Shown piece by piece: positions 36,046-48,333 of a stretch of DNA of 64,000 bases. Source of the DNA: Rhodospirillum sp. (GTDB lineage: Bacteria; Pseudomonadota; Alphaproteobacteria; Dongiales; Dongiaceae); the NCBI GenBank assembly GCA_013822765.1, contig PNKY01000017.1, positions 1 through 64,000 on the forward strand. The letters are read 5' to 3'. The stretch's first letter is position 1; every line of letters starts with the position of its first letter. Below the pieces are notes generated by a model, which worked only from the letters and a program-made list of their open reading frames with translations, did not search any database and was not told the DNA's origin. A program made the translations under genes and the position numbers.

Positions 36046-36120
36046 GCTGCCGTAGCTCAGTGGTAGAGCACGTCCTTGGTAAGGACGGGGTCGGAAGTTC
36101 AATCCTTCTCGGCAGCACCA
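36046..36120 (+). tRNA. tRNA-Thr (GGT)
   Basis: 75 nt. Acceptor pairing GCTGCCG with CGGCAGC, D arm AGCTCAGTGGTAGAGC, anticodon stem CGTCC/GGACG with anticodon GGT, T arm with AGTTCAATCCTT, encoded CCA. Its last 25 nt are repeated with one mismatch at 42567-42591, so this gene appears to be the attachment site of the accessory segment that follows. Confidence 0.96.
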
Positions 36121-36202
36121 CCTTTCCTATTGATCCGAAAGGAAAAATGGCACGGATTAATTTCCGGCCATTTCGACCAACAATCAGTTAACAATCACGG
36201 CC

Positions 36203-42554: not shown

Positions 42555-42591
42555 TTGGCAAGGACGAGTTCAATCCTTCTCGGCGGCACCA
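42555..42591 (+). repeat. Partial tRNA-Thr copy (putative attR)
   Basis: TTGGCAAGGACG followed by 25 nt (42567-42591, AGTTCAATCCTTCTCGG...CACCA) that match the tRNA-Thr 3' end with one mismatch. Compared with the intact tRNA, eight bases between anticodon arm and T arm are missing and the 5' half is unrecognisable. Weak similarity also continues for about 15 bp beyond the CCA. It cannot fold as a tRNA. Confidence 0.8.
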
Positions 42592-42782
42592 TCCTTCCAT
42601 TGGCCCGTAGCCTCGCGGGATTTTTCTTGCGCTCGCACAGCTAATCCGGGAACGCGCGGCCTCTTAGCGGTGTTGACCAATATTACGGCTGTTACGGCCC
42701 GCGCATTGCGCGCGCACCGGCGTTGACCGGTATTACAGGCCCGCGCGTCATGCGCCACGGATCAAACTGGCGGATGATCCAA
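42592..42782. other. Intergenic with imperfect direct repeat
   Basis: No gene. Two imperfect copies of a segment starting CGGTGTTGACCAATATTAC (about 42668-42716) and CGGCGTTGACCGGTATTAC (about 42718-42758) lie in tandem just upstream of the asparagine-synthase-like gene. They share TTGACC and TATTAC blocks and may be duplicated promoter or operator DNA. Confidence 0.45.
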
Positions 42783-44333
42783 ATGACAGATCGGCTATTG
42801 AAACCCAGCGACGGGGTGCGCTGGCGGTGGGACGGGTTCCTACCGAAGAGCTACTTGTTCTCGATCGAGCCGGTCGCGCGCAAGCCGGCGAACCTTCGGG
42901 AAATATCGCTGCCATGCGGCCAACTCTTCGTATCGCCGGACTATGCCTGCTGTGTCCAGCGCAGCGGATCCTCTTTCATTGCGGCGATCGGCTATTGCAT
43001 CGACCTGGAGCATCCGGGCAGCAACGAGGCGGACATCGTGTCGTCGCTGTTGCATTGCGCAATGCGCCATGGCGTCGATGAGATGTTTAGCCATACCGAC
43101 GATCTGTTCGGGAGGTTTGCAGCGATCTGCCACATCGGCGGTGACTGGCGGGTGTTCGCGGATGCATGTGCGACGCGCACCATCTACTTCGCCGAAGATC
43201 ATCCAGCAATTGCTTCACACTCGACGATCCTGGGAGAGCTGGTTGGCGCGGCGCCCCGGATGGAGATATTCCAGCACTATTGGTGCGCGCTGCCCGGGAA
43301 TGCCTCGCCATGCGCCGGCGTCCGGGTCTTGCCGGCTAACTTCGCGCTGGATCTCGCGACGCGAAAGCTCCACCGGTTCTGGCCTCGATCGCCACGCCGA
43401 CAGCGGTCGGTCTCCGACGTGATTGAAGAAGCGGACGCAATACTGGACAGGACGGCGAGCGCGACGGCGGCGCGCTGGAAGCCGGCGATATCCTTGACTG
43501 CAGGCCTGGACAGCCGCCTCAGCCTCAGTGTGTTTTGCGGCGCTCATGACCTCGTTGCCTTCACCTATCATCGCGACCCACAGGACACCACGGATGTCGA
43601 GATTGCCCATCGCTTGTGCCAGCGCCTCGGAATTCCGCACCGCCAATTGCCGCTGGTTGCAAGGAACCGGGCGGAAGGCGCCTATCGGCTGATCGAAGCG
43701 ATTCCCGACTGCACGTTCGACAAGCAGGTCGCGCCGATCTACCTGAGCGCCTTTCCAGAAAGCAATGACGCCGTCATTCACGTTCGATCGAGTCTGGCGG
43801 AGATCGGGCGTGCTTTCTGGCGCTACCATCCAGGAATGCCGACCACGATTGAGCCGTCAAATTGGGTTCACGTCTCGTTGGCGAAATCGACCGCCAACAT
43901 GCCGAAGCGAGCGGAAGCGTCGGCTTACCTGCGCGAGGAAATGCAGCGATTCTTTGCGACGGTCGGCTACGATTCAGTCGATCGGCAATCGCCGGAGATC
44001 ATGGGATATGACGTTTGGGATCTGGCTTACATGGAGCATCGGATGTCTACCTGGCATGCGCAGGCGCTATCGGGATCGGACATGGCCTTTGACACCAGCA
44101 TCCTATTCAACTCCCGCCGTCTTCTCGACCTCATGATGTCGGTCCCCTTGCAGGACCGGAGGAAGGCAACGTTGTTCCGCCGGATCATCGCGCGGCGCTG
44201 CCCGCAGATCGCCGACGTCCCCATCAATCCCCGGCCTCGGCGAACGTTCGGCCAGTTGGCGGCTGCCGGCTATCGCCAGTTCAAGCGCCGGGCGGGATTT
44301 GTCAGAGCAATCGAGACCGGGTTCAAGCACTGA
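42783..44333 (+). CDS. Asparagine-synthase-like ATP-dependent ligase
   Basis: 516 aa. The PP-loop SLTAGLDSR (237-245) and the following region (DTTDVEIAHRLCQRLGIPHR) define an asparagine-synthase C-terminal domain. The N-terminal part looks like a degenerate glutaminase domain (GRFAAICHIGGDWRVFADA), but the catalytic Cys2 is absent, so it should not use glutamine. Relatives of this kind make amides in peptide or sugar modification (beta-lactam synthetase or lasso-cyclase logic). Substrate unknown. ATG 42783 is used; earlier in-frame ATGs at 42750 and 42774 exist. Confidence 0.78.
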   Translation: MTDRLLKPSDGVRWRWDGFLPKSYLFSIEPVARKPANLREISLPCGQLFVSPDYACCVQRSGSSFIAAIGYCIDLEHPGSNEADIVSSLLHCAMRHGVDEMFSHTDDLFGRFAAICHIGGDWRVFADACATRTIYFAEDHPAIASHSTILGELVGAAPRMEIFQHYWCALPGNASPCAGVRVLPANFALDLATRKLHRFWPRSPRRQRSVSDVIEEADAILDRTASATAARWKPAISLTAGLDSRLSLSVFCGAHDLVAFTYHRDPQDTTDVEIAHRLCQRLGIPHRQLPLVARNRAEGAYRLIEAIPDCTFDKQVAPIYLSAFPESNDAVIHVRSSLAEIGRAFWRYHPGMPTTIEPSNWVHVSLAKSTANMPKRAEASAYLREEMQRFFATVGYDSVDRQSPEIMGYDVWDLAYMEHRMSTWHAQALSGSDMAFDTSILFNSRRLLDLMMSVPLQDRRKATLFRRIIARRCPQIADVPINPRPRRTFGQLAAAGYRQFKRRAGFVRAIETGFKH

Positions 44334-45579: not shown

Positions 45580-46806
45580 CTAGGTGTTTCCGCCCACCCT
45601 TGACGGCGCGCGGCGCGATGCTTTCGCCGACCTGCCGGTCTTGCGTCGCAGGAAGCGGAGCAGTTTCGCACCGAGGCCCCGCCGTTCTTGCTTGCCTCCG
45701 GCTTTGTCAGGTCCTCGCTTCACCATCGCGTAGACGACGTCCGCGTTCGGCAGCTGCGCCAGTCTGCCGGTGCGCTTCGCGCAGCTGATGATGTCCAGGA
45801 GAAAGGCCGCCTGGTACCGCTTCGTCAGGTCGAAGTGGCGAAACCAGTTTGGTGGAATGGACCGCTCCGCAAAGATCTCCGGCACCGATCCCGTCGCCAC
45901 GAAGAACATCACCTTGGTCCGCATGCATTTCTGGCAGCGTCCGCAATTGCTGGGCCGCCAGCGGTAGTTGCTGCAGAACGAGACCGACTGTAGAGCTTCG
46001 CTCGAAGTCAGCAGCGTCGCCATCTTCTCGGTCCGGCTCAGATTGCCTTCGAGCGTCGTGAGCCGCGTATACCCATCGTCGAAGTAGATATTGGTTGCGC
46101 CGTTCGAGCCCCAGGGGTGCGCGATGAATTGCTGATCGAGGCGGTAGTCCGCCGCGATCAGGATCTCGCCATACTCCTCACTGAACAGGAACCCGGAGCC
46201 GGCGAGCACGAAGATGTGGCTGAAGTGGCCCCACTTGTTGACCCGGCGCGTGCGATAGGATGCGTGGGCGTCGGTGCTGAGGAAGATGTGACCGTCGCCG
46301 ACCAGCCGCGAGAACGGGGCGATCTTGTCCTTGAAGGCCTCGAATTTCTCCTTGTCCTCGAGCCGGTAGTCCATGCCGTGCAGCGTCAGCAGGCTTTGCG
46401 TCTGGCCAGCGCGGTGTCGGGTGAGGAGCGCGTGGGTGCTGTCGATTCCGCCCGAGTAGCAGCACAGGCTGCGCCTGCGATGGCCGTCCGCCGCGCGCCT
46501 GGGCGATACAGTGTCGAACGACACGTTCACCGCGGTGAAGTGGTGGGGCAGCCACGTTTCCCAGATTTCGGATATGCGCCTGGCGTTCCTGATCGTCTCC
46601 TCCGAGCCCTCGCCCTCGATTCGCAGGTCGCGGCCGGTCCGCATCGCAATGGGCAGGAAATACCAGGCCGCGAAGTCGTTCCGCACCTCGTTGATGCAAT
46701 CGACGCCATCGATCCACACCTGGATCACGTCCTCCGGGCTGACCAGCCGGATCGATTGCGGCGACCTTTGCACGCTGACGCGAATGGAATCTGTCGGAGC
46801 CGGCAT
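45580..46806 (-). CDS. QueC-like PP-loop protein with zinc motif
   Basis: 408 aa. The ATP-pyrophosphatase loop CYSGGIDSTHALL (SGGIDS at 118-123) and a four-cysteine zinc site at Cys278, Cys288, Cys291, Cys294 (SNCGRCQKCMRTK) resemble 7-cyano-7-deazaguanine synthase QueC, but the protein is almost twice as long and has an extra N-terminal domain (1-110). The C-terminal tail is highly basic. It probably adenylates a carboxylate and adds nitrogen; the substrate is unknown. It is encoded 9 bp after the DUF6065-SapC fusion and is surely its partner. Confidence 0.75.
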   Translation of the reverse strand: MPAPTDSIRVSVQRSPQSIRLVSPEDVIQVWIDGVDCINEVRNDFAAWYFLPIAMRTGRDLRIEGEGSEETIRNARRISEIWETWLPHHFTAVNVSFDTVSPRRAADGHRRRSLCCYSGGIDSTHALLTRHRAGQTQSLLTLHGMDYRLEDKEKFEAFKDKIAPFSRLVGDGHIFLSTDAHASYRTRRVNKWGHFSHIFVLAGSGFLFSEEYGEILIAADYRLDQQFIAHPWGSNGATNIYFDDGYTRLTTLEGNLSRTEKMATLLTSSEALQSVSFCSNYRWRPSNCGRCQKCMRTKVMFFVATGSVPEIFAERSIPPNWFRHFDLTKRYQAAFLLDIISCAKRTGRLAQLPNADVVYAMVKRGPDKAGGKQERRGLGAKLLRFLRRKTGRSAKASRRAPSRVGGNT

Positions 46807-46815
46807 TTCGCGGGC

Positions 46816-48333
46816 CTAGAGCGGCGCTGCGAGATGCGGTTGGACGAGCGTGGCGGACTTATCATCCTCGTAAGCCAGGAGCCGCTCCCAGTTGCCTGCC
46901 GACGCGACATGCGCCTCCAGGGCCGCAAGCCAGCCATTGGCGTGCCACTCCCCGCGCAAGTTCTCCGGAATGGCGCGCAGGCGCTCCGGGTCGACCACGC
47001 GGAGGTCGCGGATGACGCTGCGCACCGCCAGCCGCGGCGGCGCGACATTGCGCGCCGGCATCAGGAGATCTTCGAACGCGGGATGGCGGCACAGCGCCTC
47101 GGTCCTCTGGAATTCGGCGGCGACCTGGGCCGCGAATTGCAGGCGCTCCCGGCCGAGTGCGGTCATTTCACCGCTCTCGAACAGCTTGTCCGGCGCGGCC
47201 TGGTCGAGCAACTCCGTATTCTCTTCGACGGCGAGGGTCAGAACGTCGGGCTTGCCGGCATCGGCGACGACGAGGAAGGGAAAGCGCCGAACGATGGCGG
47301 GGATGTAGTGGCCGAACCGCCAGGCGCCCGCCGTGTTGACCTGGAGATTGAGGCCTGGCAGGCCGCCGACGACGCAAACCGGTCGCGGCGGATTGTGCCC
47401 CGCAAAAGCCAAGGGATAGTTGGCGGATGCGCTGGCGCATTCGACGGCGGCCAGCGAGATCAGCGGCGTGCTGGCCGCGAATGAGCAGTCGAGCGTGCGC
47501 AGCCCCAGCGGGCCATGCTTGGCCCGCGACAGCGGCACGACCTTGCGGTGGAACTCCGGCAGGGCGTCGACGCGTACCACGGGCGCGGCTACGGCCCGGG
47601 TCCGGTTGTCCGTGAACTCGGGAAGCCGGAGCTTCGCCTGATGATCCGAGATCCCCGACTTGTCTTGCATGGTCAGGCCGCGGTAGTAGCGCTTCTGCCA
47701 CCGCGTCTTGGATTCGGATGTGTCCTTGACCATCAGACGGTCGGTGAAATCCCGGCGCTCCAGGCTCCATTGCTCATACTCGGCCTTGAGCGCAGGCTCA
47801 CTCGCCAGGCTCCTGATCTCGGCCTTGGCGGTCTCCAGCACGCCGCGCTGCACCGGGAACACGAAGCAGAATGGCTCGCCTTCCTCGAAGCTGATCCAGT
47901 GGTCGGCCCGGGTGAAGCGCCAGTTCATCGTGAAGGAATAAGGCGACCAGTCGGTTTCGATCACGCCGCTCAAGGGATAGATGCCGTCCTTCGGCTGGTT
48001 CGGCGATCCGCCGATGAACAGGTTCCAGCCGGGCTCGGTGCGGAACAGCCCATGCACGTGAAAGGTCAGGACGCCGTGGCCGAAGATGCTGGTCGGCCGC
48101 GCATGCAGGCCGGCGGAGCAGCGGATGTCGATGGCCTGCGATCCGCTGCCGCCGTCCCAGCGCGCGCTGAAGGCGCAAGGCGAGAGGAACTCCCAGCCAT
48201 GGGCATTCGCAATGTTGAGCGGGAGACAACGGTAGGCGAACGCGTCGCTGGTCTCGTCCATCCAGGACCGTGTCGCCGGCGCCGCGCGCAGCGGAGCGCC
48301 GCTTTCCCCGATCGCGTAGAAGGTCAGCTTCAC
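46816..48333 (-). CDS. DUF6065-SapC fusion protein
   Basis: 505 aa in one uninterrupted frame. Residues 1-235 match the DUF6065 pattern (AYRCLPLNIANAHGWEFLSP, then PPKDGI-like PNQPKDGIYPLSGVIETDW and SFTMNWRFTRADHWISFEEG). Residues about 260-490 match SapC (HRKVVPLSRAKHGPLGLRTL, GGLPGLNLQVNTAGAWRFGH, YIPAIVRRFPFLVVADAGKP). No signal peptide. Both families are uncharacterised in detail; SapC has been linked to S-layer or surface proteins. The GTG at 48331-48333 follows GGAGGGG; a TTG four codons upstream is less likely. Confidence 0.75.
   Translation of the reverse strand: MKLTFYAIGESGAPLRAAPATRSWMDETSDAFAYRCLPLNIANAHGWEFLSPCAFSARWDGGSGSQAIDIRCSAGLHARPTSIFGHGVLTFHVHGLFRTEPGWNLFIGGSPNQPKDGIYPLSGVIETDWSPYSFTMNWRFTRADHWISFEEGEPFCFVFPVQRGVLETAKAEIRSLASEPALKAEYEQWSLERRDFTDRLMVKDTSESKTRWQKRYYRGLTMQDKSGISDHQAKLRLPEFTDNRTRAVAAPVVRVDALPEFHRKVVPLSRAKHGPLGLRTLDCSFAASTPLISLAAVECASASANYPLAFAGHNPPRPVCVVGGLPGLNLQVNTAGAWRFGHYIPAIVRRFPFLVVADAGKPDVLTLAVEENTELLDQAAPDKLFESGEMTALGRERLQFAAQVAAEFQRTEALCRHPAFEDLLMPARNVAPPRLAVRSVIRDLRVVDPERLRAIPENLRGEWHANGWLAALEAHVASAGNWERLLAYEDDKSATLVQPHLAAPL

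Follow-up and report, generated by a model that had tools for sequence, protein, structure and literature searches.

A DUF6065-SapC fusion protein with a predicted dUTPase fold and its most likely incidental QueC-superfamily neighbour in an alphaproteobacterium

In the window, a stretch of 64,000 nts from a Rhodospirillum sp. contig, we find a protein that joins a DUF6065 domain to a SapC domain (P0001), followed on the same strand by a PP-loop protein of the QueC superfamily (P0002). The fusion of DUF6065 with SapC is genuine and is found again in other alphaproteobacteria; as far as the literature we searched shows, it is apparently undescribed. Our main reading, to which we give a probability of roughly 0.55, is that P0001 and P0002 are functionally separate and adjacent by chance, the first a modular protein with a dUTPase fold and the second a PP-loop enzyme linked to glycans. 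The domain content, the recurrence of the fusion, the exchange of SapC for a JmjC module, the predicted fold and the gene neighbourhoods are all computed directly.

The P0001 gene (46816..48333, reverse strand) encodes 505 amino acids and most likely starts at the GTG at 48333, which has a GGAGGGG immediately upstream. DUF6065 (PF19541) covers residues 3-237 (47623..48327, reverse strand; Pfam E-value 3.9e-98), scoring 328 bits over profile positions 1-235 of 236, where the Pfam cut-off is 26.6 bits. SapC (PF07277) covers residues 268-485 (46879..47532, reverse strand; E-value 4.3e-36), scoring 125 bits over profile positions 1-220 of 220, where the cut-off is 28.9 bits. Membership in either family is taken here as reaching the Pfam gathering score over the full domain, and both domains do so within one open frame. 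The original prediction had recognized the two families in a single frame and proposed an HMM search, which finds both of them complete. The third-position GC bias is strong in both P0001 and P0002 (0.84-0.86) and matches that of genuine genes in this genome, so we take both to be real genes. The N-terminus of P0001 reads (M)KLTFYAIGESG, and the protein is probably cytosolic and modular.

DUF6065 is present in 46 of 385 genomes of the class (about 11-12%). Amongst 119 distinct sequences, the domain stands alone in 83, is fused to a JmjC/Cupin_8 domain in 29, and to SapC in 7; because the 80 named loci were chosen by their similarity to P0001, these ratios are not population frequencies. P0001 is a full-length match to a family most of whose members occur alone, whereas its own DUF6065 carries a SapC. 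The closest fusion relatives are in the same family as this organism, L015 and L016, at 60% and 54% identity. In a tree, the SapC fusions fall into two clades, with support of 0.999 and 1.0, and stand-alone DUF6065 sequences lie between them, which suggests that SapC was gained twice. In the alphaproteobacterial JmjC fusions the N-terminal domain and its conserved residues are the same, but at the C-terminus there is a JMJD5-like 2OG oxygenase where P0001 has SapC. The module is Cupin_8 in Pfam (confirmed in two sister fusions), a profile of mixed DUF6065 fusions matches JMJD5/KDM8 structures at 8e-26, and the HxD...H iron motif is seen in the alignment. A survey of neighbourhoods finds no neighbour shared by DUF6065 genes beyond local synteny. 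There is one case, Sphingosinicella sp. LHD-64 (L183, 7947-12450), in which a DUF6065-JmjC fusion has a separate SapC gene about 1.9 kb away; it is the only such case we have seen.

An AF2 model of P0001 made from 47 sequences has pLDDT values mostly of 80-96 over the DUF6065 half, and it predicts a dUTPase-fold beta barrel for residues 1-185. In a Foldseek search of the PDB with the DUF6065 model, all top rows are trimeric dUTPases, the best at 4.8e-4. With VIA, the best dUTPase aligns 119 of 120 residues with a Z of 10.5 and an rmsd of 4.4, and other dUTPases align 115 residues at an rmsd of 2.7. A different possibility is that DUF6065 has an unrelated fold, and that the likeness reflects just a common beta-barrel arrangement. 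The sequence-profile comparison, with a P of just 0.009, leaves some room for that reading, which we consider quite unlikely: the top 50 VIA rows are dUTPases in 50 of 50 cases with Z between 9.4 and 10.5, above the 7-8 that the program names as the usual top Z when nothing matches clearly, and the profile alignment places motifs 2-4 in register and in the correct order. That alignment comes from hhalign with deeper profiles only (P 0.0088, which is weak), an earlier comparison with shallow profiles having been negative. It pairs KDGI..GVIETDWSP with KHGI..GTIDADYRG, and EPFCFLFPV with RIAQMILAPV. Its score of 23.8 compares with a maximum of 19.4 in 40 column shuffles and with 13.2 for a reversed profile.

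By analogy with dUTPase motifs 2-3, we predict a ligand site N112-x-x-K115-D116-G117...G123-V-I-E126-T127-D128-W129-S-P131 (47941..48000, reverse strand). N112, K115, G123, E126, T127, D128 and W129 are near-invariant across all three DUF6065 architectures (119 sequences), which indicates that the site is under selection. DUF6065 and the trimeric dUTPases (PF00692) thus have in common the predicted fold and the order of the motif regions, and they differ at the site itself, where DUF6065 has GVIETDWSP instead of GxIDxxYxG. The position that we take to be that of the catalytic Asp in the dUTPase motifs is a Glu in DUF6065, and the Tyr of motif 3 is a Trp. Neither motif 4 (RIAQ) nor motif 5 (GFGSTG) can be recognized in the DUF6065 of P0001, and none of 47 DUF6065 members matches PF00692 at E<=10. 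Given the replaced Asp and the missing motifs 4 and 5, we name DUF6065 a predicted dUTPase-fold domain, not a dUTPase. It could still be an active enzyme of the dUTPase superfamily (a nucleotide pyrophosphohydrolase or deaminase) in which Glu replaces Asp and the SapC and JmjC modules are add-ons. The predicted fold would accommodate this, as would the near-invariance of GxI-E-T-D-W and N..KDG in every architecture and the Asp retained at the site in the remote relatives L105 (GVVDTD) and L107 (GIVDTD). The loss of motifs 4 and 5, the lack of a Pfam dUTPase match, and a canonical dUTPase encoded separately in the same genome make it unlikely in our judgement. Both remote relatives (L105, 7820-8530; L107, 7584-8291) are about 236 amino acids long and have a Q in the strand that resembles motif 4.

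SapC usually occurs as a stand-alone protein of about 250 amino acids, whereas the copy in P0001 is C-terminal to DUF6065. It is found in about 22% of the sampled alphaproteobacterial genomes, and in this genome the SapC domain of P0001 is the only one. The name of the family refers to S-layer export or assembly. The fused copies have diverged, with 33-53% identity to that of P0001, and in the SapC alignment no stretch is conserved well enough to be used for scanning viral sequences. The SapC half of P0001 is poorly modelled by AF2. In hhalign comparisons, the SapC profile has no detectable similarity to the JmjC, DUF6065 and dUTPase profiles (P 0.27-0.61), so we claim no homology between SapC and any of the three. 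SapC has been associated with tryptophan halogenases and TonB receptors. We rejected this as a general tie after finding one halogenase and two receptors amongst 51 proteins near 15 SapC genes, and the literature we searched yielded nothing on SapC together with a halogenase. L233, the sole locus that came out of a single-SapC scan, is spurious.

The second gene, P0002 (45580..46806, reverse strand), encodes 408 amino acids in a layout like that of QatC. The original prediction described it as a QueC-like PP-loop and zinc protein with an N-terminal extension, and this description holds. The PP-loop SGGIDS is at residues 118-123 (46438..46455, reverse strand), with SGG and D invariant in the alignment, and the zinc motif C278-x9-CGRCQKC294 (45925..45975, reverse strand) has its four Cys, C278-x9-C288-xx-C291-xx-C294, invariant in 10 of 10 relatives. 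The structure model, made from an alignment of four sequences, is of low confidence (pLDDT 62.7). Its best match is QatC (VIA Z 12.9 with 288 aligned residues between 4 and 357, rmsd 5.9; Foldseek 4.7e-6). Further PP-loop enzymes come next, QueC and the nitrile synthetase ArtA among them, so that the predicted fold is QueC/QatC-like.

P0002 is not a canonical QueC. It shares with QueC (PF06508) the SGGxDS loop and a Cys-rich zinc motif, but its score of 14.3 bits is below the Pfam cut-off of 22. The published Cys spacing of QueC is C(x)8CxxCxxC, and that of P0002 is one residue longer. The QueC signatures YxQxHxxE, VPxRN and YPDC (PMC13329287) do not appear in its sequence. Since P0002 falls below the PF06508 threshold, it is probably not in the clusters of the 2026 map of that family (PMC13329287). 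No NCBIfam model matches P0002 at E<=0.1, which leaves it outside the curated family of WbpG-type N-sugar amidotransferases. With QatC of the qatABCD system (PDB 9y01/9y02), P0002 shares an N-terminal extension, a QueC core and a length of about 400 amino acids. We rejected the assignment to QatC on three counts: the zinc motif, which in QatC is C(x)19CGxCxxRR (PMC13329287); the PADLOC QatC model, which does not match P0002; and the neighbours, which do not include qatA, qatB or qatD. The genes adjoining at the locus are a GST, the DUF6065-SapC fusion and an FAD oxidoreductase.

A related alternative is that P0002 works like the QueC-family enzymes of type IV CBASS, attaching 7-deazaguanine or something similar to the N-terminus of P0001. 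The structural match to QatC that takes in the N-terminal region, the partner gene next door, and the published binding of QatC to QatB (PMC13279940) would all fit. Modification of QatB and of the CD-NTase needs a flexible tail and an N-terminal glycine (PMC13279940), and the N-terminus of P0001 has neither. In addition, neither a QueC over the cut-off nor a QueD/PTPS is found in this genome, which is 97.7% complete; de novo 7-deazaguanine synthesis thus appears to be absent, there is no obvious source of deazaguanine, and this argues against preQ0 or deazaguanine chemistry for P0002. Together with the differing zinc motif and the lack of a PADLOC match, these facts leave us giving the alternative almost no credence.

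What marks P0002 instead is membership in an unnamed clade of the QueC superfamily that is often tied to polysaccharide genes. Relatives occur in 6 of 385 genomes of the class; a search of genome contigs with P0002 as the only query returned no confirmed relative. In a sister species (L336), an orthologue 63% identical lies 22 bp after a Stf0 sulphotransferase. In this same genome (L013), a paralogue at 60% follows a family-2 glycosyltransferase, and a polysaccharide pyruvyl transferase lies 0.6 kb away from it. The relatives in Azospirillum, Gemmobacter, Priestia and Gloeothece plasmids are all near polysaccharide pyruvyl transferases. Our pyruvyl-transferase HMM was made from the neighbouring genes and matches those loci by construction, and we therefore checked L013 and L228 separately with Pfam PF04230. 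Amongst 50 neighbours of distant relatives, glycosyltransferases are the commonest, with flippases, an O-antigen ligase, a deacetylase and a pyruvyl transferase also present; Wzx, Wzy and a sugar transferase are further neighbours of the family. Wzx flippases flank P0002-family genes in both sister species and in a contig of a viral collection (L189). Other relatives are outside glycan loci (L098, L100-L103, L220 and L223), so that the link of the family to glycan loci is strong, not universal. These surveys of adjacent genes used a simple ORF caller that may miss small neighbours. Elsewhere in this genome (G000, C2 584119-586797; L014 8060-10858), two tandem paralogues of P0002 have a Wzx flippase and an ELM1-like protein as neighbours. 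The association with Wzx is conserved for both copies in a sister species (L335) and for a single copy at L334.

The window has a further feature apart from this locus. The 3' end of a tRNA-Thr (36046-36127) is repeated 6.5 kb downstream at 42567-42598 (32 nts, 91%), and the genes in between (a glycosyltransferase, a PglD-like acetyltransferase and a PhyH dioxygenase) have low GC3. This segment looks like a small genomic island. Just outside it, 42723-44333 encodes a divergent asparagine-synthase-like protein with a marginal Pfam/NCBIfam match.

The original prediction took P0001 and P0002 for one dedicated system: DUF6065 and SapC would together handle a substrate, and P0002 would insert nitrogen into it. 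The two genes are on the same strand with a gap of 9 bp (46807..46815), consistent with co-transcription in this strain and making it likely, and relatives of P0002 do adjoin surface-glycan genes. The proposed association does not recur: neither the DUF6065 loci (about 120) nor those of the P0002 family (more than 30) include a second one with both genes. No gene of the P0002 family occurs in the whole genomes of the fusion relatives at 54-60% identity (L015 and L016), which are from the same family, and the 63% orthologue of P0002 pairs with a sulphotransferase. The neighbourhood analysis, which the original prediction itself had named as a possible refutation, thus speaks against the dedicated system, which we hold to be very unlikely, and P0002 is most likely an incidental neighbour of the fusion. 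Nitrogen insertion into a surface substrate stays plausible for P0002 by itself, given how many of its relatives are found in polysaccharide loci; as the work of a two-gene system it most likely does not stand.

Under our preferred reading of two separate proteins, DUF6065 would be a dUTPase-fold barrel, probably a trimer, put to a new use. Its conserved pocket would be formed by dUTPase motifs in altered form, with Glu for the catalytic Asp, Trp for Tyr, and neither motif 4 nor motif 5. The ligand of this pocket would be a small molecule, nucleotide-like or otherwise, or a peptide. The barrel would present an interchangeable C-terminal module, a JmjC/Cupin_8 oxygenase in most fusions and SapC in P0001 and six others. 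Since SapC occupies the place of JmjC in these fusions, we infer that it may act on the same targets as the JmjC module, or in the same process. P0002 would be an ATP pyrophosphatase whose probable reaction is the adenylation of a carboxylate or amide of a surface-glycan precursor, together with nitrogen transfer; it would work with pyruvyl-, sulpho- and glycosyltransferases encoded elsewhere. More tentatively, and at less than even odds, DUF6065 may be a dUTPase-fold domain turned docking or ligand-sensing platform that was fused independently to JmjC and to SapC, with SapC as a stand-in for a JmjC hydroxylase.

Both DUF6065 and SapC are widespread in alphaproteobacteria, and the literature we searched describes no function for either. 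The main interest of this locus therefore lies beyond the system first proposed for it, in the predicted fold of DUF6065 and in the exchange of modules, which links SapC to JmjC oxygenases. The dUTPase-like fold and the SapC/JmjC swap provide a concrete starting point for both families. If true, the role of SapC as a stand-in for a JmjC hydroxylase would be the first testable biochemical role for the SapC family.
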